A stretch of 36,313 bases of DNA, taken from positions 1 to 36,313 of the forward strand of contig PWQX01000096.1 in assembly GCA_003556605.1 (NCBI GenBank). Reading direction: 5' to 3'. Positions 10,608-34,706 of this stretch are shown here, piece by piece. Under the pieces are notes generated by a model that was not told where the DNA came from, made no database searches, and saw only the letters and a program-made list of their open reading frames with translations. The position numbers were made by a program, and so were the translations under genes. The number at the start of each line of letters is the position of its first letter. The stretch's first letter is position 1. Source of the DNA: Spirochaetaceae bacterium. GTDB lineage: Bacteria; Spirochaetota; Spirochaetia; DSM-27196; SLAA01.

Positions 10608-11888
10608 ATGATGAACTCCGCAGTCGGAATCGGAGATTTAGCGGTCTATATCCCACAACCATGTATGCCTCTCGAAACACTGCTAGCGTACCGAGTGAAC
10701 GGAGATGCGAAGATGGAGCGGCGCTTGCGCCGCGCGGTGGAATCCACCGGTCAGCGGTCGATGCGATATCCGCAGATATGGGAAGACAACGCTACCCTTG
10801 CAGCCCAGGCTAGTCATCAACTACTGAACCAGAACCCTGAGCTTCCGCTGGCGAAGTTGCGCTACATCGCGGTTGGTACCGAGACCAGCGTGGATCTCTC
10901 CAAGCCGGTTTCGGCGTACGTTGAGGGTATGCTTCAGACCGCAGGTCACCCGGTACCCGATTCTATTTCAACATTCCAAGTACAGCACGCTTGCGCAGGC
11001 GGTACTATTTCGATTATGAGTGTCGGCGCGCTGCTGTGCGCATCGGCGCGAGAAGGCGAGAGCGGGATGGTTATTTGCTCCGACATCGCGCGCTACGAAT
11101 CGGCTACAACTGCCGAGATCACTCAAGGAGCGGGTGCGGTCGCGATGCTGGTTGAAACCAACCCTCGACTCGTAGAGCTCGACATCTCAACGCAGGGATA
11201 CTGCTCGCGCGATGTTGATGACTTCTTCCGCCCGCTCGGATCGGTGACTGCCAAGGTAAAGGGCGGATACTCGGTGCAGTGTTACCACGAATCACTGGAC
11301 GCAGCCTTCCGCGACCACTGTGCCCGCACCGGCGAGAGCCCTCGCAAAGCGCTGGAAGAAACGGACATGTTCGTGCTGCACATTCCGTTTCAGAAGATGG
11401 CCTGGATCGCAATTCACCGCCTGCTGAGCGAGCATTTGCAGTTGCCGTCCGAGCAGATTGAGACGTTTCTTAACGAACGCGGGTTTGCCGCCGCGACCGA
11501 ACCGGCGGCGTATGTCGGCAACATTTACTCCGGGGCGGCCTATCTCTCACTCGCGTTCTATCTCAAGGATCGCTTCGACACCCTCGGCGACGATATCGTC
11601 GGTAAACGCATCCTGCTTGCGTCATACGGTTCCGGAAACACGATGTCGGTCATACGCGGGCGCGTCGCCGCCGGCGCCCCGGGGGTCATTCGAAACTGGA
11701 ATCTAGACACGCTGTTTACCCGCACGTGCAAGGAATCGTTCGATACCTACGAGCAGTGGCTGAATGCTCCGCTGGAGGTGGAGGACTACAATCGAATCGT
11801 TAAACGCGAGTCCGATGCTATTCCCAGCGGGTCGTTCTATCTAGCGGGCATTCGAAACGACGGTTATCGTGAGTACAGCTTCAAGTAA
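10608..11888 (+). CDS. mvaS: hydroxymethylglutaryl-CoA synthase
   Basis: A 426-residue thiolase-fold enzyme that condenses acetyl-CoA with acetoacetyl-CoA to HMG-CoA, the first committed step of the mevalonate pathway. The acyl-accepting cysteine is Cys129 in VQHACAGGT, and the catalytic histidine is in LHIPFQKMAW. The N terminus (GIGDLAVYIP) and YVGNIYSGAAYLSLA region are typical of the family. Two tandem ATGs (10608, 10611) are possible starts, with AAGGTAGG just upstream. It is the first gene of the operon, preceded by its promoter and leader repeat, and overlaps the isomerase gene by 20 bases. The acetoacetyl-CoA thiolase that should supply its substrate is not in the window. Confidence 0.93.
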   Translation: MMNSAVGIGDLAVYIPQPCMPLETLLAYRVNGDAKMERRLRRAVESTGQRSMRYPQIWEDNATLAAQASHQLLNQNPELPLAKLRYIAVGTETSVDLSKPVSAYVEGMLQTAGHPVPDSISTFQVQHACAGGTISIMSVGALLCASAREGESGMVICSDIARYESATTAEITQGAGAVAMLVETNPRLVELDISTQGYCSRDVDDFFRPLGSVTAKVKGGYSVQCYHESLDAAFRDHCARTGESPRKALEETDMFVLHIPFQKMAWIAIHRLLSEHLQLPSEQIETFLNERGFAAATEPAAYVGNIYSGAAYLSLAFYLKDRFDTLGDDIVGKRILLASYGSGNTMSVIRGRVAAGAPGVIRNWNLDTLFTRTCKESFDTYEQWLNAPLEVEDYNRIVKRESDAIPSGSFYLAGIRNDGYREYSFK

Positions 11889-13026
11889 CGGACCGGCGGG
11901 CGGATTACGGCCGCACAGCGATACCGCGGAGGGTAACGCACTCGGCACTCGCAAGAGCGAGCATCTAGAGATCTGCCTCGACGAGCAGCACTACGCCGTG
12001 GAGACCCACAGCACGGGACTCGAAGCCGTGTCGTTTCTGCATCAAGCACTCCCCGAAGCCGCTGACGAGGAGATCAGCACTGCCACTGAGTTTCTCGGAC
12101 ACAGCATACGCCTGCCGATGTTCATCTCCTCGATGACCGGCGGTTCCGAAGCGGGCTACCGCGCAAACAAGGACCTGGCCCGGGCGGCCCAGACCACCGG
12201 GATACCGGTAGGAATGGGTTCGATCCGCATTCTCTTTCGCAGGCCGGAAGTGCTGGATCACTTTGCACTCAAGAAGATCGCCCCCGACGTACCGGTCTTC
12301 GCCAATCTCGGCGGGGTTCAAGCGCGCGAGATGAACCACCGCGAGGTGTTCGAGATGCTGCGCCGCCTCGAGGTTCAAGGCATAGCAATCCACCTCAATC
12401 CCGGACAGGAGCTTTTTCAACCCGACGGCGACCGCGACTTTCGCGGCGTGTTCGCCGCGCTTGTGCGTTTCGTGGAGCAGTGCCCGGTGCCGGTAATCGT
12501 GAAGGAAACCGGTTTCGGCATTGACCCCCGTCTGCTGCGGCGGCTGTTGAACGCCGGCGTTGCCTACGTGGACCTCGCCGGCAGCGGCGGGACGAACTGG
12601 GTGCAGGTTGAAGCGTATCGCAGCACGGCACAGGAGCGGGCCGCTGCCGAGGAGTTTCAGCACTGGGGGTTTCGCACCGGCATACTGCTCGGCGCGCTTG
12701 AGCCGCTGCCTGATACTGCCGGTCGCGTCCTGGCTTCCGGCGGCCTGCGCACGGGCCTCGATATGGCGAAAGCGGTGGCGCTCGGTGCGCACGCCGCCGG
12801 TTACGCACTTCCGTTCATACGCGCGGTGCACGCGGGTGGCGCCGAGCAGGCGGTGGAATTGATCGGGCGTTACCACAAAGTTCTCCGCACTGTGATGCTT
12901 CTCAGCGGATGCCGTTCAATTGCGGAGCTGCGTAACGGCCGCCTGCAGCGCACAGCCTCGTTCCGGCAGGCGGTCGCGGATCTACGCACCGCTGTCGGTT
13001 TTGACAGCCCCATATCCGGAGTGTAG
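11869..13026 (+). CDS. fni: type 2 isopentenyl-diphosphate delta-isomerase
   Basis: A 385-residue FMN- and NAD(P)H-dependent enzyme interconverting IPP and DMAPP, of the TIM-barrel type unrelated to IDI-1. The recognisable family start is RKSEHLEICL (residues 28-37). It is followed by FISSMTGGSEAG, VGMGSIR, FANLGG, the HLNPGQELFQPDGDRDF segment that carries the substrate-binding glutamine and an acidic metal site, KETGFG, and the FMN phosphate-binding LAGSGGTNW and SGGLRTGLD loops. The GTG at 11869, inside the end of mvaS, gives a 27-residue extension before the family start; I see no better start codon in between. Second gene of the operon; a two-base gap separates it from the reductase. Confidence 0.92.
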   Translation: MSTASSNGPAGGLRPHSDTAEGNALGTRKSEHLEICLDEQHYAVETHSTGLEAVSFLHQALPEAADEEISTATEFLGHSIRLPMFISSMTGGSEAGYRANKDLARAAQTTGIPVGMGSIRILFRRPEVLDHFALKKIAPDVPVFANLGGVQAREMNHREVFEMLRRLEVQGIAIHLNPGQELFQPDGDRDFRGVFAALVRFVEQCPVPVIVKETGFGIDPRLLRRLLNAGVAYVDLAGSGGTNWVQVEAYRSTAQERAAAEEFQHWGFRTGILLGALEPLPDTAGRVLASGGLRTGLDMAKAVALGAHAAGYALPFIRAVHAGGAEQAVELIGRYHKVLRTVMLLSGCRSIAELRNGRLQRTASFRQAVADLRTAVGFDSPISGV

Positions 13027-13028
13027 CG

Positions 13029-14321
13029 GTGTCACGGCTTCCGAAGGCGTTTCGCAAGCGAAGTGTTCGCGAACGCAATCGACTTCTCGGTGAGCTGCTG
13101 GAGCTCAGCCACGACGAGCGCGCAGCGCTCGCTTCAGGTCATGGGCTGTTGGATCTCGCCGATGTGATGGTTGAAAGCGCCGTGGGGTTTATGCCGCTTC
13201 CGCTTGGTGTCGCCGCCGGATTCCGCATTGACGACGAAACCTACGACATTCCGATGGCAACCGAAGAGCCGTCGGTGATCGCGGCGGCCGGTTTTGCAGC
13301 TGCCGTCATTCGACGTGCCGGCGGATTCTGCACCTGGGCCGACGAACCGTTGATGACCGCACAGGTCTTCCTGGAAGGCGTACCGCCCGGCGGCGAGGCG
13401 GCAATTGCGGCCGCCGAGGCCGAGGTCGCCGCGGCGCTGGCGCCGCTGCTCGCCTCAATGCAGCACCGTGGAGGCGGCTTTCGCGCGCTGCGAGCGCGCC
13501 GGGCCTTGACGGGTACTGCGGCCGCACGCGAAGTGGTGTGCGCCGAGATTGTAATCGATGTGCGCGACGCAATGGGCGCAAACGTGCTCAACAGCGCGGC
13601 TGAAACGGCCGCGCCGATTCTTGAGCACGCAGCCGGAGGGCGGCGCGTGATGGCGATCCTGTCCAACGCGGCTCGTGAGCGCCGGGCAGGAGCGCGGTTT
13701 CGCCTGCCGCTTTCCAAACTGCGGCGCGGCGCCCACGGCGGTCAAGCACTCGCCGAGCGCATCGTACTGGCAAACGAGATCGCCGCGGACAACGCTGAAC
13801 GCGCGGTAACGCACAATAAGGGAATCATGAACGGGATCACGGCACTGGCTCTGGCGACCGCCAACGACACCCGCGCAATTGAAGCTGCCGTACACGCGTA
13901 CGCGGCGCGCGAAGGCGGGTACCGTGCGCTCACCGAATATCGTATCGAGAACAACGAGCTGGTGGGATGCTTTTCAGCTCCGCTGGCGTTTGGAACCGTT
14001 GGCGGTGCGGTCGGCTTTCATCCGGTCGCGCGCAGCGCGCTGCGGCTGCTCGGGGATCCGGGTTCCGAACGGCTCGCGCGCATCGCGGCGGCTCTCGGCC
14101 TCGCGCAGAGCTTCGCCGCAGTGCTTGCACTGGTAACCGAAGGCATACAAGCCGGCCATATGCGGCTGCACGCCAACCGTCTCGCGTTCAACGCCGGTGC
14201 CCGCGGCGAGGAGATCACCCGAGTCGCCGAACAGCTGGCGCAAACCGGTTCCTTCAACGCCGAGACTGCGGGACGGACGCTGCAAGAGCTGAGAGAGGCG
14301 CATGATTCCAGCGGCCTATAG
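13029..14321 (+). CDS. mvaA: hydroxymethylglutaryl-CoA reductase, class II
   Basis: A 430-residue soluble bacterial-type HMG-CoA reductase that makes mevalonate from HMG-CoA with NAD(P)H. The motifs are those of the Pseudomonas mevalonii class: MATEEPSVIAAAG with the catalytic glutamate (about residue 80), DAMGANVLN, HNKGIMNG with the catalytic lysine, ANDTRAIEA with the aspartate, and AGHMRLHANRLA with the catalytic histidine near the C terminus. No membrane segment is present, as expected for class II. The start is GTG at 13029, two bases after the isomerase stop. It overlaps the decarboxylase gene by 20 bases. Cofactor preference cannot be judged from the sequence. Confidence 0.94.
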   Translation: MSRLPKAFRKRSVRERNRLLGELLELSHDERAALASGHGLLDLADVMVESAVGFMPLPLGVAAGFRIDDETYDIPMATEEPSVIAAAGFAAAVIRRAGGFCTWADEPLMTAQVFLEGVPPGGEAAIAAAEAEVAAALAPLLASMQHRGGGFRALRARRALTGTAAAREVVCAEIVIDVRDAMGANVLNSAAETAAPILEHAAGGRRVMAILSNAARERRAGARFRLPLSKLRRGAHGGQALAERIVLANEIAADNAERAVTHNKGIMNGITALALATANDTRAIEAAVHAYAAREGGYRALTEYRIENNELVGCFSAPLAFGTVGGAVGFHPVARSALRLLGDPGSERLARIAAALGLAQSFAAVLALVTEGIQAGHMRLHANRLAFNAGARGEEITRVAEQLAQTGSFNAETAGRTLQELREAHDSSGL

Positions 14322-15399
14322 CGCTACCGCGCATCCCAGTCTCGCGCTGGTGAAGTACTGGGGAAAACTCCCCGGCGGGGTGAATATCCCGGCGACTACG
14401 AGCATCGCGGTAACCCTCGACTCACTCTACAGCCGCGTCACAGTCCAACCTGCCGACCGTGACTTCATCAGGATCGACGGCCGCGCGGCTGCAGAGCAAC
14501 GATTCCGCGCGTTTTTCGACGCCGTGCGCGCCCGCTGCAACAGCTTGGTTGGGTTCGCCGTGGAGAGCTCCAACAACTTTCCGACCGCCGCCGGGCTCGC
14601 AAGCTCCTCCTCAGGGTTCGCCGCGCTCGCGCTCGCTTGCACGCAGGTCGCGTTCGCGGCCGCCGGTCAAGACGCTGCCGGCGGCAAACAGCCGGCTGCC
14701 GCTCGACACGTGGTGGGCTCCACCGGCCGAGAAGACGGGCGCACGCGCACCGAGAAGTCCGAAGCGGCGCTGTCCGCAGCCGAGCTGTCGGCTCTCGCGC
14801 GCGTGGGTTCCGGGTCCGCAGCCCGCGCGGTGTTCGGCGGTTTTACCCGTTGGCGCCGGGGCGAGCCGGCCGCCGAGCAACTGTACCCGGCCGAGCATTG
14901 GTCCGAGCTCCGTGTGGTAGTGCTGCGTATCTCGGCTGAGGCCAAGGTAGTCTCCTCGCGTGATGCGATGGAACGCACCCGCATGAGCTCTCCGTACTTC
15001 CATGCGTGGGTAGACGATAACGGAAAACTCGCCATTGAGGCTGAGCGCGCGCTCGCGACACGTGACCTTGAACGGCTCGGTGAGACGGCACGCCGCAGTT
15101 ACCTGCGCATGTTCGCTACTATGCTCGGCGCCGAACCGCCGATCTTGTATTGGCTGCCTGCGACGGTCGAGGCAATTCGCACCTGCGAACAACTGCGGCG
15201 GGAGGGAGTCCCGGCGTTTGAAACCATGGACGCCGGGCCCCAGGTCAAGGTTATCACTACCACCGAATACGTAGAGCACATCCGTGCCGCGCTCAGCAAA
15301 GTCACCGACGTGTTGGCGGTGTGCGCACCGGGGCCGGACGCCGCGCTCGAGCCGGCAGCGCCGGTTCAAGAACCGCCCGCAGGGGAGCCGCCGCGATGA
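14302..15399 (+). CDS. mvaD: diphosphomevalonate decarboxylase
   Basis: A 365-residue GHMP-fold enzyme that converts mevalonate diphosphate to IPP with ATP and loss of CO2. Diagnostic segments are ALVKYWGK (residues 15-22), NIPATTSIAVTLDSL, the P-loop-like region NNFPTAAGLASSSSGFAALA (91-110), RVGSGSAARAVFGGF (167-181) and MDAGPQVK with the catalytic aspartate. An insertion of about 36 residues rich in Ala, Gly and charged residues (about 120-156) separates the P-loop helix from the LSAAELSALAR helix. The C terminus has a Pro/Ala-rich tail of about 25 residues. Both are unusual for the family, whose members are mostly 310-340 residues. The core is intact, so the enzyme should be active. The stop codon overlaps the next start by four bases. 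Confidence 0.92.
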   Translation: MIPAAYSATAHPSLALVKYWGKLPGGVNIPATTSIAVTLDSLYSRVTVQPADRDFIRIDGRAAAEQRFRAFFDAVRARCNSLVGFAVESSNNFPTAAGLASSSSGFAALALACTQVAFAAAGQDAAGGKQPAAARHVVGSTGREDGRTRTEKSEAALSAAELSALARVGSGSAARAVFGGFTRWRRGEPAAEQLYPAEHWSELRVVVLRISAEAKVVSSRDAMERTRMSSPYFHAWVDDNGKLAIEAERALATRDLERLGETARRSYLRMFATMLGAEPPILYWLPATVEAIRTCEQLRREGVPAFETMDAGPQVKVITTTEYVEHIRAALSKVTDVLAVCAPGPDAALEPAAPVQEPPAGEPPR

Positions 15400-16493
15400 G
15401 GAGCGCCGGCGACCACGAAACGGCCGAAGGCGAAGCCGCTGTGCATCTCACCGAGCGAACGGCACGTATCACGGCACCTGGGAATCTTCTCGTGTGCGGC
15501 GAGTATGCCGTTCTCGAGCCCGGCGGCCTCGGCATTGCGGTAGCAGTCGCGCCGTACGCTGCGGCCGAGATACGGTCCGGCCGGCCCGCGATCGTGCGTT
15601 GCCTGCACGCCGGCACCGGCGAGCGTTACTACCGCCCGGGTGAGTTCCCCGAACCCGATACACAACTGCCGGCGGTCTGCCTGGAGTATCTGCTGCGCCA
15701 CAAGCTTATCACGGCGCCGCCGCGGGCCGAGATCACGCTGGACTCGCGCGCATTCTTCTCAGCCTCGGGCGGTAAGCGCGGCTTCGGTTCCAGCGCCGCG
15801 GCAACCGTAGTGTGCACCGCGGCCATCCTTTACGCCGCCGGCTTCTCGCGCGCGCGCGTACGCTGCGCTCTCACGAATCACACCGTTGCGATTCACCGCG
15901 AGTTTCAGGGCGGACGCGGCAGCGGTTATGACGTGCTGATCTCAGCTCTCGGCGGCGTCGCTCTGTTCACCGGTGGCCGGTGCCCGCGCGCCGAACCGCT
16001 GGATGCGGAGTGGCTGCGCGGGGCGTTTCTCGTCTCAGCCGGACCACGCGTGCAAACTACCGGCGCGGTGCGGCGCTACGAGGCGTGGAAAAGCCGCTAC
16101 CCACAGGCCGCCGCAGAGTTTCTCCGCACCTCAAACGAGCTTGTCGGGCGGCTCGCCGCAGCTTCCTCGCGTCACGCGGCGCTCGCCGTCCTAGAACGTC
16201 TCGCAGGGCTCGGAATCGAGCTTGGTGAGGCCATCGCGGTTCCGGCAGCGCTGTCCCAGACAGTCCGCAACCGGGTTGAACGGCAGCTCAAGGGGCCGAA
16301 CGCGCTCCGGGGTAACGACGCGCCGAGTACGACGGTCTGTAAATCGCTCGGCGCGGGCGGGGAGTTGGCGTTATGTCTTCCAGGCGATGCGGAAGCACCT
16401 ACGCGCGCCGGCCGCGATTGTGATACGATACAGCCATTGCAGATAGCGTCCGAGGGGGTGTCGTGGAACGCAACGGATCCGATTGCACGGTAG
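15396..16493 (+). CDS. phosphomevalonate kinase (GHMP family)
   Basis: A 365-residue kinase that phosphorylates mevalonate-5-phosphate, inferred from GHMP motifs and its place between the decarboxylase and mevalonate kinase. Motif 1 is APGNLLVCGEYAVLEPGG (about residues 28-45), motif 2 KRGFGSSAAATVV, then EFQGGRGSGYDVL, and a motif 3 remnant KSLGAGGELALCL. The ATG at 15396 overlaps the mvaD stop (ATGA) and has GGGGAG just upstream; an upstream ATG at 15321 would give an Arg/Ala-rich extension encoded inside mvaD and is less likely. About 40 residues follow motif 3 with no obvious family match, overlapping the start of the kinase gene downstream. It resembles the classical ATP-dependent phosphomevalonate kinases rather than an archaeal-type decarboxylase route. 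Confidence 0.85.
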   Translation: MRSAGDHETAEGEAAVHLTERTARITAPGNLLVCGEYAVLEPGGLGIAVAVAPYAAAEIRSGRPAIVRCLHAGTGERYYRPGEFPEPDTQLPAVCLEYLLRHKLITAPPRAEITLDSRAFFSASGGKRGFGSSAAATVVCTAAILYAAGFSRARVRCALTNHTVAIHREFQGGRGSGYDVLISALGGVALFTGGRCPRAEPLDAEWLRGAFLVSAGPRVQTTGAVRRYEAWKSRYPQAAAEFLRTSNELVGRLAAASSRHAALAVLERLAGLGIELGEAIAVPAALSQTVRNRVERQLKGPNALRGNDAPSTTVCKSLGAGGELALCLPGDAEAPTRAGRDCDTIQPLQIASEGVSWNATDPIAR

Positions 16494-17569
16494 GCGTCGC
16501 CGGAGGCAAGCTACTACTATTCGGAGAACACGCAGCGGTGTACGGGTACCCTGCAGTGGGCACTGCGTTGCCGTTGTACACACGTGTCCGGTTTTGCGAT
16601 CAAGCCGGCCGGCCGCTTCGCGGCCTGGGCGGTCAACGCATCGGAGCGCTTGACCTGCACGCGCTCGAGCCGGCTGATCGCCCTGCAGTTCGCGCGGTGA
16701 TGGAACGCTTATTTGCCCTCACTAAGATCTGCGACGAACGCAAAGCAGAACCCGCACGCATTTCGTTAGAGATCAGCTCAACGGTACCCCGCTCGCTCGG
16801 GCTCGGCTCGTCGGCCGCGCTGTGTGCCGCAATCGCGAGCGCAGCGTGTCCCCGGGCTACTCCCCTGCAGCGCTGGACGGTCGCAAACGAGTTGGAGCGG
16901 CAGTTTCACGGCACACCCTCGGGCGTGGATACCGGCATTTCCACGCTCGGATCAGCACGGGCGTTCTGGTTCAACGCCGAGGGTATTCCCGAGGAGGTCG
17001 AAATAACCTTGCCGCCGGGCTACGTTCTCGCCGGCGCCATTCCGCGCCACAGCTCCACCAAGGCGCTCATCGGCGAGCTTCGTACCCGCATTGCAACGCA
17101 GGGCGCCGAACCGCGTAACGCGCTCGCCGCGCTCGGTGAGCTCAGCGCCGCAGCAGCAGCCTCGCTCGCCGCCCGAAGCCCCGAGCGCAACGGGCCTCAG
17201 CGCGGACGCGAGCAGCTCACGATCGAGACGCTCGGAGCTCGCGCCGACCGGGCGCATGCGATACTGCGGCGCTTACAATTAAGCACCACGCTGCTCGACG
17301 ATGTACTTGATCTTGGCCGCCGGTTGGGCGCTACCGGAGGCAAGCTCAGCGGCGGCGGGGGCGGCGGCGCCTTTTTTCTCCTGTTCTCCCAACAAAGCGC
17401 CGCTGAGCACGCGCGCCAGACGATTGGAGGATTCCTGCGCGAGCAGCTCGGCGCGCGCGTGAGCGACACCCTGCCGCTATTAGTCTTTCACACGGCACAA
17501 ACATCGCAGCCCCGCACGAGCGAGCACACATCATCGCCGGGGACGGACACGGAGCACCTCCAGGTATGA
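16463..17569 (+). CDS. mvk: mevalonate kinase
   Basis: A 368-residue GHMP kinase that phosphorylates mevalonate to mevalonate-5-phosphate. Motif 1 is GGKLLLFGEHAAVYGYPAVG (residues 14-33), motif 2 PRSLGLGSSAALCAA, and the catalytic aspartate is in HGTPSGVDTGIS; motif 3 is GGKLSGGGGGGAFF, with a longer glycine run than usual. The start is GTG at 16463, preceded by GAGGGGG, and it lies inside the phosphomevalonate kinase gene (31-base overlap), so translation is probably coupled. The last 30 residues are a hydrophilic Ser/Thr-rich tail. Its stop overlaps the start of the lipoprotein hydrolase gene by four bases. Feedback control by isoprenoid diphosphates is known for this family but cannot be seen here. 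Confidence 0.93.
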   Translation: MERNGSDCTVGVAGGKLLLFGEHAAVYGYPAVGTALPLYTRVRFCDQAGRPLRGLGGQRIGALDLHALEPADRPAVRAVMERLFALTKICDERKAEPARISLEISSTVPRSLGLGSSAALCAAIASAACPRATPLQRWTVANELERQFHGTPSGVDTGISTLGSARAFWFNAEGIPEEVEITLPPGYVLAGAIPRHSSTKALIGELRTRIATQGAEPRNALAALGELSAAAAASLAARSPERNGPQRGREQLTIETLGARADRAHAILRRLQLSTTLLDDVLDLGRRLGATGGKLSGGGGGGAFFLLFSQQSAAEHARQTIGGFLREQLGARVSDTLPLLVFHTAQTSQPRTSEHTSSPGTDTEHLQV

Positions 17570-24597: not shown

Positions 24598-25767
24598 TCA
24601 CTCGCCGGCTTCGCTCAGCTTGCGAATGTGGCGCACCGTATGCAAACGCCCGGTCAGCGTCCGGCGCTCGCGCGCGGCCTCGCGCACCAGCGCCACGACG
24701 CCGGCTTGAGCGGTAGTGTGATTACGGACCGACCGCTCTGCTCGGTCTCCTGATGCATGCAGCTCTTCGGATAACGTCATCGGCACCTGTACTAAGTAGC
24801 GCGCAAGTACCCGGATTCGATGGATACTGCGTTCGAGGCGGTTCATCGGCGCGGCAATCTGCGCCAACAGCGCACGAATCTCATCGTACGCGGGGTCTGC
24901 GCCCGGAGCAACGGCGCGACCGACCCGAGCGGCACGCATCCAGTTGTACCAGCTCTCCCGCAGGCCCAGCAGCTCACGGTAGCGGTTATTGAAATCGGCG
25001 CGCGCGGCGTAGTACCGGCGGCGCTCACGCTCGAGCAAGCGCACGACCTCAGCGGCGGTTCGCCGCTCGCGGTCACGAAGCCACCCATCCGGGCCTTCCG
25101 GCTCTTCGAGCAGCCGGTGGCGAAACGCCCCGTCCGGGCGGTACTCTAGCGCACGCCCATCACCGGCGAGCCGTTCACGCCCGTCGGCGCCGGTGACTCG
25201 CGCCCAGCCGCGGGAGGCCCACACCAAAACAGCCCCATCCGGCGCCTCGCGCAGCTCCACTTCGCCGTCATCAATACGCACCATAAGCTCACCGTAGCGG
25301 ACCGCAAGCACCCCGTGACCCACACCCGGTCTGACGCCGATGACCCCGCCGTCAACACGCACCTGCAGCGAGCCCCGCAGCATCTGCAGCATGAAGCCGG
25401 TAGCGTCATCCTGTTCGTTTTCCTCGTGCGCGACACGCGCCGTAAGATACGCTGCACTGTCCGGCAATAACGTAAACGCCGCCTTCGTGCCGCCTGCGGC
25501 CGCGACCACCGCCTGCAGCTCATCGCCGCGACCGGTTTGCAGATAGTCGTAAAGCTGGAGGTGCGGGCGCCCGCTAAGATCCAACCACTCGCGTTCGCCA
25601 TCGCGCACAAGCACCGGAGCGCCGCGGGCGTCCTTCAGGCGCGCCTGCGCGCCGCCGGCGCTTCGCTCGGCGCCCAGCGGCTGAGCGCCTGCGGGTATGA
25701 CCATCCCCAGCACCAGCAGCGACGCGAGGCATGCGAAGGCCGGCAAGCTCCGGCAATCCCCCGACAT
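24598..25767 (-). CDS. exported FecR-domain-like protein with helical C-terminal region
   Basis: A 389-residue protein with a signal peptide (about residues 1-28, ending near GAQP), so it is predicted to be periplasmic or surface-associated. Residues about 60-200 form a beta-rich region with repeated turns (FMLQMLRGSLQVRVDGG, GVLAVRYGELMVRIDDGEVEL, GAVLVWASRGWARV) that resembles the FecR domain. The region from about 235 on is rich in Arg, Glu and Leu and is probably helical, possibly coiled coil. It lacks the transmembrane segment and anti-sigma part of classical FecR proteins. AAGGAG lies seven bases before the start at 25767. It follows the radical SAM gene after 15 bases and appears to be its co-transcribed partner. 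Function unknown; the fold call is moderately sure. Confidence 0.6.
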   Translation of the reverse strand: MSGDCRSLPAFACLASLLVLGMVIPAGAQPLGAERSAGGAQARLKDARGAPVLVRDGEREWLDLSGRPHLQLYDYLQTGRGDELQAVVAAAGGTKAAFTLLPDSAAYLTARVAHEENEQDDATGFMLQMLRGSLQVRVDGGVIGVRPGVGHGVLAVRYGELMVRIDDGEVELREAPDGAVLVWASRGWARVTGADGRERLAGDGRALEYRPDGAFRHRLLEEPEGPDGWLRDRERRTAAEVVRLLERERRRYYAARADFNNRYRELLGLRESWYNWMRAARVGRAVAPGADPAYDEIRALLAQIAAPMNRLERSIHRIRVLARYLVQVPMTLSEELHASGDRAERSVRNHTTAQAGVVALVREAARERRTLTGRLHTVRHIRKLSEAGE

Positions 25768-25782
25768 ATCATGCTCCTTGTA

Positions 25783-26862
25783 TCATGACCCGCTCTGAGG
25801 TAAACGCAGCGGTGCCAGCAAGGACCCCACCGGGGCGGAGCGAGCGCCTGCGAATACGTGCCGCCAAACCGCCGGGCTCTCCATGCACAGGTAAATCGGC
25901 ACGCGGCCAAGCGCCTGCTCAAGGGTGCCCCGCATGAACCGGTAGATTTCCACCCGCTCGCGCTGCAGATAGCGCAGCTTTCCGTCGCGCGAGGGGACGA
26001 ACTCATCGAACATAAACCGACGCGGGGGCACCGCGTCGCGTAACGCCGGGGTAAACCGCACCATTCCCAGGCTCACCCACGCAATCCGCAGCGGGGGCAT
26101 TGTGCGCAAGCGCTCGATCAGCGCGCGGTACCACGCCTGCCACTCGCCGACGCGAATGATCGGATCGAAGTGAAAGGCCACGCGATACCCGGCTGCCGCG
26201 ACCCGCTCGGCCGCGGCCAGCCGGTCCGCTACCGGAGCAGTCTCGGGTTCCTCCTGCGCAACCAGCTCGGGCGGATTGAGCGAGAACGCTATGATCGCGT
26301 TGCCGACATTCGATACGTCAAGCACATGATCGACAAAATCGGTCTTGGTCTTGAGCTCCAACTCCACCGACGGCTCGTCGGCAAAGGCTTCGATCAGTTC
26401 ACGGGAGAGCCCGAACAACGGGTCCAGCTGAAGCGAGTCGCCGATTTGGCCGGTTCCCACACGGACGCGCCGGCCCGGGTTCGCGCGCGCGATTGCACGC
26501 ACCGCCGCGATGATCGGGTAGGTGTCGATGTTCACAACCAACGGCGCAAAATTACGGTAGCTCTGCATGATGCAGTAGCTGCACCCGAGGGTACACCCGG
26601 CGTACAGATCGGCCGTGAGGTAGTTACAGCAGATGTGCCCGCGGGAGCCCGGGCAGCGCCCGACCGGGCTCCCGCGTGTCGGCACCGCCACAAGCGTACG
26701 GTCGTTACGATGCGCCTTAGGGATTTGCTCACGAGCGGTGACTAGTTTCGCGCCCCGCAGCGCAAGGCGCTGCGCTGCACGCCGGACCGCCGGGTGTTCG
26801 GCAACCTCGTGCTCAGCGTAGAAATGCAGAAAGCGGCGCCTATAGTAACTGAAACAACTCAT
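25783..26862 (-). CDS. radical SAM enzyme of the spore photoproduct lyase-like family
   Basis: A 359-residue protein counted from the ATG at 26862 (MSCFSYYRRR). The radical SAM cluster CTLGCSYC sits at residues 90-97, the same spacing and position as in spore photoproduct lyase, after a C-rich segment GHICCNYLTADLY. The TIM-barrel core has ELELKTKTDFVDHVL and FHFDPIIRVGEW as in SplB relatives. The cysteine that donates hydrogen in true spore photoproduct lyases, which I place by eye at GTGQIGDSL, appears to be missing (glutamine or nearby glycine instead), so repair of spore photoproduct is doubtful. An in-frame ATG at 26883 would add seven residues. It overlaps the ParB-like gene upstream and is followed by the FecR-like gene. 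Related proteins occur in non-sporulating bacteria with no known role. Confidence 0.8.
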   Translation of the reverse strand: MSCFSYYRRRFLHFYAEHEVAEHPAVRRAAQRLALRGAKLVTAREQIPKAHRNDRTLVAVPTRGSPVGRCPGSRGHICCNYLTADLYAGCTLGCSYCIMQSYRNFAPLVVNIDTYPIIAAVRAIARANPGRRVRVGTGQIGDSLQLDPLFGLSRELIEAFADEPSVELELKTKTDFVDHVLDVSNVGNAIIAFSLNPPELVAQEEPETAPVADRLAAAERVAAAGYRVAFHFDPIIRVGEWQAWYRALIERLRTMPPLRIAWVSLGMVRFTPALRDAVPPRRFMFDEFVPSRDGKLRYLQRERVEIYRFMRGTLEQALGRVPIYLCMESPAVWRHVFAGARSAPVGSLLAPLRLPQSGS

Positions 26863-27739
26863 CGCAGTTGTGCTCCACAGCACGCAGCGCCGCTATGCGT
26901 TTCGCGAGCTGGAACTTACTCTCGAATTGGAACTGCACCCAAAACGCGGTTCCTTCAAACTGCGGCGGGGCGTGCAGGGTAACACCGGTGCCGTAGAGGT
27001 GCTGCCGGCAGAACCCGCGAAAGCGCTGCTCGAGCTCGTGCAGCCGCGGGTAGCGCATCGCGCGTAACGCGGCCGGCGGATCTCCGGTTTCAAAAGCGCG
27101 GTTCAACATCGCGATAACCTCATCAGCATCGCGCTGCCCCATTACACAGAACTCGTAGACCAAACCGAGTACCATACGGCGCTGCGAAAACGTCAGGTCC
27201 GCCGCGCGCTCGGCGAACACCGCCGCAACCTCGGTCGGCAGGGCCGCGCCGCGCCCGGCCGTCTTCAAGTCCAGCGTACCTGCTCGCACAAGGACACGCA
27301 ACGGCTCGGGCAGCCCCTCAAAGCGCTCGATCGCTTGCATCAGGCTGCCCGGCCGGCCCAACACCAACGGGGTGAGCTCGGCAGCGCGCTCGTGTAGCCG
27401 GTAATGCCGAATACAGGCGCCGATCGCCAGAATTTCACCCCAGCCGTATTGCCCGGCACGCGACTCAACACGAAGCGCAAGCTCCAGAGCGCCGCCCGCG
27501 TCGGTGACCACTTCCGCTGCCGGGGCTGCGATAATTCCCGCCGCCTTTAGGCTGCGCAGCAGCTCCCACCCCCAGACAACGGTCGGCTCTTTCACGTCTT
27601 CACGCCACAGCGCGACCGGAGGATGCATGCGCGCGTACAGCAGGCTTTCGTCGTATCCAACGCCGGAAGAAAAGAGATCAAAACTCCGTGGTGAGCACAA
27701 GAGCTCGGCTACCGGTACGGACGTTGTTTCAAACGCCAC
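26840..27739 (-). CDS. ParB-like protein, partner of the SPL-like enzyme
   Basis: A 299-residue protein. The N-terminal half follows the ParB/Spo0J layout: PPVALWRED and TVVWGWELLRSLKAAGI match the region where ParB has PIVVR and GERRLRAAK, then ALRVESRAGQYGWGEIL lies where ParB has the EN(I/V)QR box, and AIERFEGLPEPLRVLVRAGTLDLKTA resembles the helix-turn-helix and spacer that follow. The CTP-binding GERRxRA motif is altered (GWELLRS), so ParB-type CTPase activity is uncertain. A C-terminal portion of about 120 residues is not recognised. The start is GTG at 27739 with AGGAG nine bases upstream; a weak promoter (TTGATG, 18 bp, GACAAT) lies before it. First gene of a three-gene unit. It may be a DNA-binding or adaptor protein; chromosome partition itself is unlikely. 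Confidence 0.65.
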   Translation of the reverse strand: MAFETTSVPVAELLCSPRSFDLFSSGVGYDESLLYARMHPPVALWREDVKEPTVVWGWELLRSLKAAGIIAAPAAEVVTDAGGALELALRVESRAGQYGWGEILAIGACIRHYRLHERAAELTPLVLGRPGSLMQAIERFEGLPEPLRVLVRAGTLDLKTAGRGAALPTEVAAVFAERAADLTFSQRRMVLGLVYEFCVMGQRDADEVIAMLNRAFETGDPPAALRAMRYPRLHELEQRFRGFCRQHLYGTGVTLHAPPQFEGTAFWVQFQFESKFQLAKRIAALRAVEHNCDELFQLL

Positions 27740-32065: not shown

Positions 32066-33037
32066 TCAGGCGGACGGAAGTACAATAGCATTGCGCGGTT
32101 CTCCGCGCTGAAAGGCTTTGAGGTTCGCTGCCGCCTCAGCGACACAGCGTCCACGCGCCTCGGGAGTTGCCCAGGCGATGTGCGGAGTAATCACGCAATT
32201 CGGCGCGGTAAGCAAGGGGTTTCCGGGGTCGGGCGGTTCTTCGGAGCCGAGCACGTCCAAACCCGCACCGGCGATTCGGCCTTCGTGCAGCGCCGCTGCC
32301 AAAGCCGCATCGTCAACCAAGCCGCCACGCGCGGTGTTGATAAACAGGGCGCCGGCTTTCATGAGCTTCAAAGCTTCGGCGTTTATGAGCTTTCTGGTTT
32401 TAGATGTAAGCGGCAGGTGCAGGCTCACGACATCAGCCTGTCGCAGCAGCTGACCGAGCTCGACCCGTTGCACCCCGGCAGTGTAACACTGTTCGGGCGA
32501 CGATTCGTCGTAGGCGAGCACCGGCATCGCGAACGCGCGGCCAAGTGCCGCGACTGCCGCCCCGATACGCCCGAATCCGACCACTCCGAGGATTTTTCCG
32601 TTGATCTCCAGCAAGGGCTGCGGCAAATACCGGTAGGGTCTGCCGGCTAGCCAATGGCCCGCGTGCACCGCTGCGTCGTACTCCGTGACCCGGTGCGCGA
32701 GGGTCAACAACAACGCGAACGCCGCTTGCGCAACCGACTGCGTACCGTACGCCGGCACATTGCACACCGTTACCCCGTGCGCCTCGGCAGCTGCGAGGTC
32801 AACGTGATCGTATCCGGTAGCAACAAGACCGAGATAGCGCAAGCGCGGCAGCTGAGAAAAAACCGCTTCAGAGAACCCCAGCGAATCGACTATCACCGCG
32901 TCGGCAGAAACAGCGCGCTCAACGAGCTGATGCGGAGCGGTCCGATCGTAGACCGTGAGCCCGCCGAGCTCGGCAAAGGCCTTCCAGCTGAGATCGCCGG
33001 GATTCACCGCGTAACCGTCGAGCACCGTTATCCGCAA
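32066..33037 (-). CDS. D-2-hydroxyacid dehydrogenase (hydroxypyruvate/glycerate reductase-like)
   Basis: A 323-residue NAD(P)-dependent enzyme. The cofactor motif GVVGFGRIG is in the middle of the protein, and the catalytic residues are the arginine in INTARGGLVDD, the glutamate in DVLGSEEPPDPGNPL and the histidine in TPHIAWAT. The sequence looks closest to glycerate dehydrogenase/hydroxypyruvate reductase (HprA-like), which interconverts hydroxypyruvate and D-glycerate, but other 2-hydroxyacids are possible. It starts six bases after the pckA stop and is the last gene of the minus-strand run doeA-eutB-pckA-dehydrogenase. Such an enzyme could handle a hydroxyacid product of hydroxyectoine breakdown; this is speculation from position. 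Confidence 0.88.
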   Translation of the reverse strand: MRITVLDGYAVNPGDLSWKAFAELGGLTVYDRTAPHQLVERAVSADAVIVDSLGFSEAVFSQLPRLRYLGLVATGYDHVDLAAAEAHGVTVCNVPAYGTQSVAQAAFALLLTLAHRVTEYDAAVHAGHWLAGRPYRYLPQPLLEINGKILGVVGFGRIGAAVAALGRAFAMPVLAYDESSPEQCYTAGVQRVELGQLLRQADVVSLHLPLTSKTRKLINAEALKLMKAGALFINTARGGLVDDAALAAALHEGRIAGAGLDVLGSEEPPDPGNPLLTAPNCVITPHIAWATPEARGRCVAEAAANLKAFQRGEPRNAIVLPSA

Positions 33038-33043
33038 CGCTGC

Positions 33044-34706
33044 TCACCCCTCGGGGCATTGTGCCGCGATCTCGTCGGCGACCTTGCCGGCGAACGCCTT
33101 AGTGAAGTGCTCACGGAACTTCCCTGCAAGCGAGCGCGCGGTACGTTCAAACGCCTCTTTATCCTCCCAAGTACGCCGGGGGTCCAGCAGCTCATCCGGC
33201 ACCCCGGGACAGTGCAGCGGAACCTGCACCTTGAAGATTTCGTCGGCGCGGCTTTCAACCGAGTCGAGCTCGCCGTCCACTGCCGCGTTCACCATACGCC
33301 GAGTCGACGCGATAGCGATGCGCTCACCTACGCCATACGGCCCGCCGGTCCACCCGGTGTTCACGAGAAACACATTCACGCCGTGCGCTTTCATCTTCTC
33401 ACCGAGCAAGTCGGTATAGTCGGACGGATGGCGCGGCATAAACGGCTCTCCGAAGAACCGGCTGAAGGCCGCCTTCGGTTCCACAACGTCGGTCTCGGTA
33501 CCTGCAAGCTTCGAGGTGTAGCCCATCATGAACCAGAACATCGCCTGCTCGGGGTTCAGCTTAGCGATCGGCGGGAGCACCCCATAGGCGTCGGCGGAGA
33601 AACACTATTGTGCTCGGGTGATCACCGACTGACCCTTCCTTGGTGTTGCTGACGAATCGCAGCGGATACGAGGCGCGTGAGTTCGGCGTGAAGCGCTCAT
33701 CGTCGAAATCAAAGGTACCGTCGGGGTATACCATCAGATTCTCAACCAGCGACCCATGATTGAGATAGTGATCGGGATGGAAGGTGGCGTTGTAGATCTC
33801 CGGTTCCTTGTTGGGGTCGAGGTTGATCAGCTTCGCATAGCAGCCGGCCTCAAAATTGGCGATACCGTGCTTGCTCCAACCGTGCTCGTCGTCGCCGATG
33901 AGCGCACGGTCGGGGTCGGCAGACAGCGTGGTTTTGCCGGTACCCGAGAGCCCCAGGAACAGCGCGACTCTTCCGTCCGCACCTTCGTTGGCGCTGCAGT
34001 GCAGCGGCAGAATACCTTCATCCGGCAGATAGAAGTTCATAACGGTAAACATGAGCTTCTTCATTGAGCCCATGTATGCCGAGCCGTACACAATACCTAT
34101 GCGGCGGTCAAAATCTATCACTACCGCCATGCTCGAGGTGCGGCCGTTGGGCAGCTCACGCAATCGGCCGCTGTAGCGGTCGCGGTCAAGCTTGTCGAAA
34201 CCCAACGCGAGGAGGGTAAACGGTTGTGCTGCGAAGCAACTGCGCGTCAAGTCCTTGGGAACCGGACGAAACATGTTGTCGATGAACAAGCCGGCGAGCG
34301 CGTTGTAGGTGACCGTCGTAACCGGCAGACAGTAGTCCCGGCAGGCGCCGACCACCCGGGGGAGCTCATACAAACGGTCCTTCTTGCGCAAGGTATACAG
34401 CGCGTCTTCAAACAGCATATCAAAGGTTTCCGGCTCCATTGGAATCGAGTTCGGGGCGCTCCAATCGATCTTGCCTTCGCTCTCGGGCCGTCTCACGATA
34501 TACGTGTCCTTAGGGCTGCGACCGGTGGAGTCCTGCGGCGTCCAGGTTACCAAGGTCCCCTCGGCAAGGCGGATCGCCATCCAGCGCTCCACCGCGTCTT
34601 GAATCAAGCACGATCGACTCGGATTGCGAAACACCCGCCCAGTCCTGTCGCTGACCAACTGGCTTACCTCTTCGCGGTAATACTCGTCCGTCTTTTGCGT
34701 TTCCAT
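33044..34706 (-). pseudogene. pckA: phosphoenolpyruvate carboxykinase (ATP), disrupted by a frameshift
   Basis: The gene converts oxaloacetate and ATP to phosphoenolpyruvate and CO2, the entry to gluconeogenesis. The first reading frame (start 34706, GAGG nine bases upstream) encodes the N-terminal two thirds, with the kinase P-loop GLSGTGKTTLS and the neighbouring GDDEHGW. At about 33594-33602 the frame breaks: the expected IVFLSADAYGVLPPIAKL is read as IVFLRRR and ends at 33561. The remaining third (LPPIAKLNPEQAM to NTGWTGGPYGVGERI and the C terminus) continues intact in another frame to 33044. A two-base loss (CTCTCC shortened to CTCC, removing one serine) explains it. Joined, the protein would be about 550 residues, a normal length. 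Everything else looks functional, so this is a recent mutation or a sequencing error. It lies 24 bases after eutB. Confidence 0.88.

Follow-up and report, generated by a model that had tools for sequence, protein, structure and literature searches.

A conserved gene pair encoding a ParB homologue and a spore photoproduct lyase-like radical SAM protein in spirochaetes and other phyla

In the genome of a Spirochaetaceae bacterium, the gene for a ParB homologue (hereafter B) directly precedes and overlaps a gene for a predicted radical SAM enzyme of the spore photoproduct lyase (SPL) fold (hereafter S). The two genes constitute a conserved two-gene module: they are inherited together, lie on the chromosome and in almost all cases overlap or nearly do so. 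The pair links two well-studied families without known joint work: ParB is a chromosome-segregation clamp, and the known member of the SPL-type radical SAM enzymes directly reverses DNA damage. In the open-access journal literature searched, no paper was found that connects ParB with SPL in any relevant way, or with a radical SAM protein of spirochaetes, and this supports, within that literature, the claim of a first-pass annotation of this DNA that the combination is undescribed.

Results

Organisation of the locus

The window, i.e. the whole stretch of DNA analysed, comprises the 36,313 nucleotides of contig PWQX01000096.1 (assembly GCA_003556605.1). Its positions 24598-27739 hold three open reading frames, all on the minus strand, encoding B, S and a third protein, F (Table 1). 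The open reading frames and their coordinates confirm the earlier description of three same-strand genes that overlap or lie 15 bases apart, since S begins within B and the gap between S and F is 15 bases. As to the start of S, the ATG at 26862 fits the family better than the GTG at 26883, and gives an overlap with B of 23 nt, a length that is among the two most frequent in the family. Shine–Dalgarno-like stretches can be read upstream of B (AGGAG), S (GGAG) and F (AAGGAG). The proposal of a three-gene unit stood for B and S, which are the conserved core, but not for F, a lineage-specific companion outside that core.

Table 1. Features of the B–S–F locus, with positions in the window
Feature	Position	Strand	Basis
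B, ParB-like, 299 aa, GTG start	26840..27739	-	ORF reading, hhalign, PDB profile, AlphaFold2, Foldseek
Box II site of B, residues 57-60, GWEL (GERR/GxxR in ParB), nucleotide-binding arginine absent	27560..27571	-	alignment, residue counts
C-terminal domain of B, residues 231-299, aligning with the ParB C-terminal dimerisation domain	26843..27049	-	alignment, hhalign
Overlap of B stop and S start, 23 nt	26840..26862	-	start-position survey of B–S pairs
S, longest frame, 366 aa from GTG 26883	25783-26883	-	ORF reading
S from the likely ATG (MSCFSYY...), SPL-fold radical SAM	25783..26862	-	profile matches, family start positions
C77 of S (CPG), near-invariant; aligns with C76 of Geobacillus SPL, likely counterpart of clostridial C74	26653..26655	-	alignment
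C85-C86 of S (HICCNY), near-invariant, absent from SPL	26626..26631	-	alignment
Radical SAM CX3CX2C of S (C97, C101, C104), with Y103 aligned to SPL Y97(Bs)	26572..26595	-	alignment
Q146 of S (E in most of the family), at the SPL hydrogen-donor position C141(Bs)/C140(Gt)	26446..26448	-	alignment
C333 of S (LCME), near-invariant, beyond the SPL-alignable stretch	25885..25887	-	alignment
F, exported FecR-like, 389 aa, spirochaete-specific companion	24598..25767	-	ORF reading, homologue comparison

Conservation and co-inheritance of the pair

B lies directly upstream of S in 23/23 readable loci among 40 relatives and the source genome itself (window included), which is far beyond chance. A scan with one genome per species showed B adjoining S in 58 of 80 named loci, and the loci with an adjacent B belong to Spirochaetota (including Alkalispirochaeta alkalica DSM 8900), KSB1, Calditrichaeota and 'Deltaproteobacteria'. 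This pairing in close relatives and in other phyla rules out a single-genome artefact. S lacks an adjacent B in a Marinimicrobia type and in several Spirochaetota families, so that S can work without a linked B.

S is carried by 66/82 genomes of a KSB1-centred and by 140/247 genomes of a 'Deltaproteobacteria'-centred phylum sample. Among the best 60 loci of these two samples, 56 had room upstream of S, and B occupied it in 50. In 94 of 112 pairs, the nearest S ATG falls between -50 and +20 counted from the B stop, and the distribution of these S starts peaks at -26/-23 and -4/-1.

Co-occurrence was assessed in 296 genomes sampled from the phylum of the window, among which S was counted at E below 1e-50, B and S counts were taken from listings of matches and the number of S genomes was set at 125-140. 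Full-length B was present in 41 genomes, and 39 of them also had S, compared to about 18 expected (hypergeometric p near 1e-13, relatedness ignored). In several families B and S are found on separate contigs or far apart. When mapped on an S tree (FastTree, with some long branches), the label 'has B' changed 9 times versus 46 in shuffles. No convincing B–S fusion appeared in 14 long S frames; one ORF (L326) carries just part of B in frame with S.

Of the two checks that the first-pass annotation named as able to refute its idea, the one on recurrent pairing thus favoured it: the pairing extends far outside the source genome.

B is a ParB homologue

The B sequence alone gave no Pfam match, and the window's B stays below the PF02195 gathering score, the score used in a recent survey of ParB folds whose main text does not mention radical SAM. 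Two members of the delta-type B group exceed the PF02195 cut-off unaided (33.3 and 31.8 bits vs 26.3). A profile of 44 B relatives matched Myxococcus ParB (1e-16), Spo0J (6e-16) and also Noc in the PDB, and found the source genome's own chromosomal ParB at 2.5e-13. Comparison of B with the chromosomal ParBs of related spirochaetes through hhalign gave a probability of 98.8 and an E of 6e-16 over 278 columns, including the C-terminal domain, while unrelated alignments stayed at a probability below 1%.

The structure predicted for B by AlphaFold2 (pLDDT 96) retrieved ParB, Noc, Spo0J and KorB as top Foldseek matches, with a probability of 1.00 for the leading ones; the TM-scores were modest (0.23-0.43 of the query), which a domain arrangement unlike that of ParB would explain. 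The architecture consists of an N-terminal ParB fold, a central helical region and a ParB-type C-terminal domain. B residues 231-293, a putative dimerisation domain, are paired by hhalign with the C-terminal domain of chromosomal ParB; the DNA-recognition helix aligns poorly with that of ParB. All together, these data establish B as a ParB-family protein over its full length, and the ParB likeness first noted from the sequence extends to the predicted fold, whose best PDB neighbours are ParB and Noc, so that the second of the two checks favoured the earlier idea as well.

In a FastTree phylogeny of B, which has some long branches, the B proteins all stand apart from ParB, and those of Spirochaetales that are linked to S lie together on one side of a branch. 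A separate chromosomal ParB was present in each of the 11 genomes searched, and no parA-like gene adjoins the unit in the window or recurs as a neighbour cluster among relatives. B resembles ParB/Spo0J/Noc in its homology over the whole length, in its predicted fold and in the GxxR P-motif kept outside Spirochaetales, but differs from them by adjoining a radical SAM gene instead of parA and by the altered GERR of Spirochaetales.

As a separate observation, the unlinked B of other Spirochaetota families often lies downstream of a gene pair (L247:5432-10305, minus strand), encoding a protein of about 525 aa with TPR and Mrr-type nuclease domains and one of about 740 aa without a Pfam match.

Loss of the Box II arginine in Spirochaetales

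The window's B reads VWGWELLRSLK where ParB has AGERRxRA. The altered motif had been noticed from this one sequence, and its loss of the arginine proved to be clade-wide: the GxxR arginine is present in 1/43 Spirochaetales B, compared to 33/33 B of the KSB1 sample, 25/25 of the delta-type sample, 9/11 unlinked Spirochaetota B and 11/11 chromosomal ParBs. When this arginine is changed, ParB-fold proteins no longer bind nucleotide (PMC12704722). Since the arginine is kept elsewhere and lost in Spirochaetales, B descends from a nucleotide-binding ParB whose switch this order has probably lost. On its alignment, the B of the window is a ParB homologue that we do not class as a nucleotide-binding ParB.

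S has the SPL fold and departs from SPL at key residues

S scored 80.9 bits against PF20903 (cut-off 27), and its profile matched a solved SPL in the PDB at 1e-37. Against the NCBIfam equivalogs TIGR04070 and TIGR03886 it reached 83 of 400 bits and 55 of 437 bits, respectively. The first-pass assignment to the SPL family holds at the family level (PF20903), but not at the equivalog level, where S falls far under both cut-offs.

The positions near-invariant in 118 B-adjacent S proteins and in most others are C77, C85/C86, the radical SAM triad, Y103, D149-S150-L151, K178, K180, H238, K302, Y305 and C333-M-E. The residue replaced by Q146, C141, is the hydrogen donor of Bacillus SPL (PMC3742179). 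Of the two SPL relay tyrosines, Y97(Bs) is kept as Y103, and the second, Y99(Bs), is I105 in S. The idea that S had lost every hydrogen-donor cysteine was dropped, as the alignment sets C77 at C76 of Geobacillus SPL. The equivalence of C77 to C74, the conserved cysteine named for clostridial SPL (PMC5368176), is suggested by spacing.

Compared to SplB (TIGR04070, PF20903), S keeps the radical SAM core, the SPL fold as judged by sequence, CX3CX2C, Y97(Bs) and the GK..Y motif, but has C141(Bs) and Y99(Bs) replaced, the extra cysteines C85, C86 and C333, a sub-equivalog score, hosts without known spores and a usual ParB-like partner. By its sequence, then, S is an SPL-fold radical SAM enzyme and not an ordinary spore photoproduct lyase; C77 may serve it as hydrogen donor, or a second cluster may be bound by C77, C85, C86 and C333.

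The activity of SPL is the repair of 5-thyminyl-5,6-dihydrothymine, the spore photoproduct, which arises in spore DNA coated by small acid-soluble proteins (SASP). The B–S hosts are bacteria without known spores, and a search of the whole source genome found no alpha/beta SASP gene where the B. subtilis control was positive, in keeping with the lack of any sign of sporulation reported from the window. These results weigh against the reading of S as a genuine thymine-photoproduct lyase that, like the clostridial enzyme, acts without light, with C77 as donor and B loading the enzyme on UV-damaged DNA. The near-invariant C77, aligned with Geobacillus C76 and spaced as expected for clostridial C74, and the match of Y103 to Y97(Bs) speak for it; yet the lesion forms in SASP-coated DNA, Y99(Bs) is replaced, C85, C86 and C333 are left unexplained and the scores lie far under the equivalog cut-offs, and we regard this reading as improbable.

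Two variants of S were observed besides. In locus L106 (7033-9039, minus strand), a distant S homologue is fused, as read by eye, to an N-terminal nucleoside-phosphorylase-like domain, for which the removal of 5'-deoxyadenosine is a possible role. The Marinimicrobia-type S (about 430 aa; L171, L175-L190) shares the near-invariant cysteines, differs in its N-terminal part and has no B.

F and the genomic context

F itself gave no Pfam match, in particular none to FecR (PF04773). A Sec signal is readable at its N-terminus, and FecR is matched by 5/14 aligned F homologues (best 5e-11); on these grounds F is described as an exported, putatively FecR-like protein. F adjoins S downstream in many Spirochaetales loci, is missing in others and is absent outside the order, which rules out a three-gene B–S–F core; an Alkalispirochaeta-like subclade has another exported protein in its place. 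The directly downstream position of F in so many loci is what would be expected of an envelope or signalling unit with F as effector in FecR-type sensing and B and S in regulatory roles. Against it, the pair occurs without F outside Spirochaetales and in several Spirochaetales, a different exported protein takes the position of F in one subclade, and no sigma factor or anti-sigma partner stands beside the unit in the window; we consider such a unit very unlikely.

In many relatives the unit is flanked by hom/glgP on one side and by an ABC ATPase/solute-binding pair on the other, and the retention of these flanks makes inheritance there look vertical. S had no matches in plasmids, phages or viral contigs, and the window's proteins matched no PADLOC model; together with the conserved chromosomal synteny, this leaves a mobile or defence element unsupported. 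The neighbouring genes are scattered (release factor, M18 peptidase, VTT protein, acyl-CoA dehydrogenase, metallo-beta-lactamase fold, DUF374), and, examined for a pathway or substrate, none recurs enough to indicate one or points to repair.

Some further features were recorded in these regions. At L257:4383-5989 (plus strand), a gene of the uracil-DNA glycosylase superfamily precedes a more distant SPL-like gene and overlaps its start. A gene for a 394-aa protein of the metallo-beta-lactamase fold comes after B and S in part of the delta-type lineage (L292:2598-3779, plus strand, and similar loci). In the window, the PEP carboxykinase gene at 33035-34706 (minus strand) is split, with 381 aa ending at 33561 and the remainder read in a different frame as far as about 33044, likely through a one-base frameshift that is either an assembly error or a pseudogene. 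Positions 10608-17569 (plus strand) hold, as read from the translations, a complete-looking mevalonate-pathway cluster with HMG-CoA synthase, type-2 IPP isomerase, HMG-CoA reductase, mevalonate decarboxylase and two kinases.

Discussion

The reading that we tentatively favour, with a confidence slightly short of even, is that in the conserved B–S module B is a DNA-binding dimer or clamp, or an adaptor, through which S reaches the DNA that it would repair or modify. The products of the two genes would interact, B would bind DNA and deliver S to it, and B would set where or when S acts; S, in turn, would act on DNA by hydrogen abstraction, to repair a base lesion or to introduce a modification. 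C77 may replace the Bacillus donor C141 in this chemistry, or C77, C85, C86 and C333 may hold an extra iron-sulphur cluster. In most lineages, where GxxR is kept, B could switch with nucleotide, and in Spirochaetales, with the switch probably lost, it would be a fixed adaptor. F, being exported, cannot act on cytoplasmic DNA and would be a lineage-specific passenger or read-out.

The proposal that B binds DNA and S acts on it draws on the family functions of both proteins and on the attachment of ParB folds to nucleic-acid-modifying enzymes. ParB folds occur in fusion with nucleic-acid methyltransferases and with nucleases (PMC12704722), so that a ParB-type guide for a DNA-acting enzyme has a precedent. 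Orphan ParB-fold proteins fused to methyltransferase or HNH domains, and DndB (PMC12704722, PMC10853773), likewise place a ParB fold beside enzymes acting on nucleic acids without ParA, but they are fusions or often mobile-element proteins, whereas B is a separate chromosomal gene beside an SPL-like S. The poor alignment of the DNA-recognition helix of B with that of ParB, and the clades in which S has no B beside it, speak against the proposal.

DNA-damage processing, as first suggested for the locus, stays a proposal: S is devoid of the Bacillus-type hydrogen donor and of the second relay tyrosine, and no neighbour provides a link to repair. Replacement of these two residues, combined with four other near-invariant cysteines, suggests a different chemistry, and is compatible with a rival scheme in which S works on tRNA, protein or a metabolite and B, as a scaffold or regulator that binds DNA, either controls the operon or is itself the substrate of S. 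The presence of S without B in some clades and the metallo-beta-lactamase-fold hydrolase found after S in some delta-type genomes fit this scheme too. On the other hand, B persists with S also where the genes are unlinked (39/41 overall), as a local operon regulator need not, and S is still closest to a DNA-repair enzyme in profile searches; we hold a non-DNA substrate to be possible, if rather doubtful.

Returning to the guidance of S to DNA by B, a more specific form of it, which we rate as somewhat unlikely, would be an as yet undescribed DNA-maintenance system present in several phyla, where a nucleotide-switched ParB-type clamp carries a dedicated radical SAM enzyme along DNA for light-free base repair or modification, with B reduced to an adaptor in spirochaetes.

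The B–S pair is deeply conserved and common in the KSB1- and 'Deltaproteobacteria'-centred samples, and a core job in many bacteria is therefore likely. In addition, the retention of GxxR in some lineages and its loss in one provide a natural series for studying the role of the ParB switch outside segregation.
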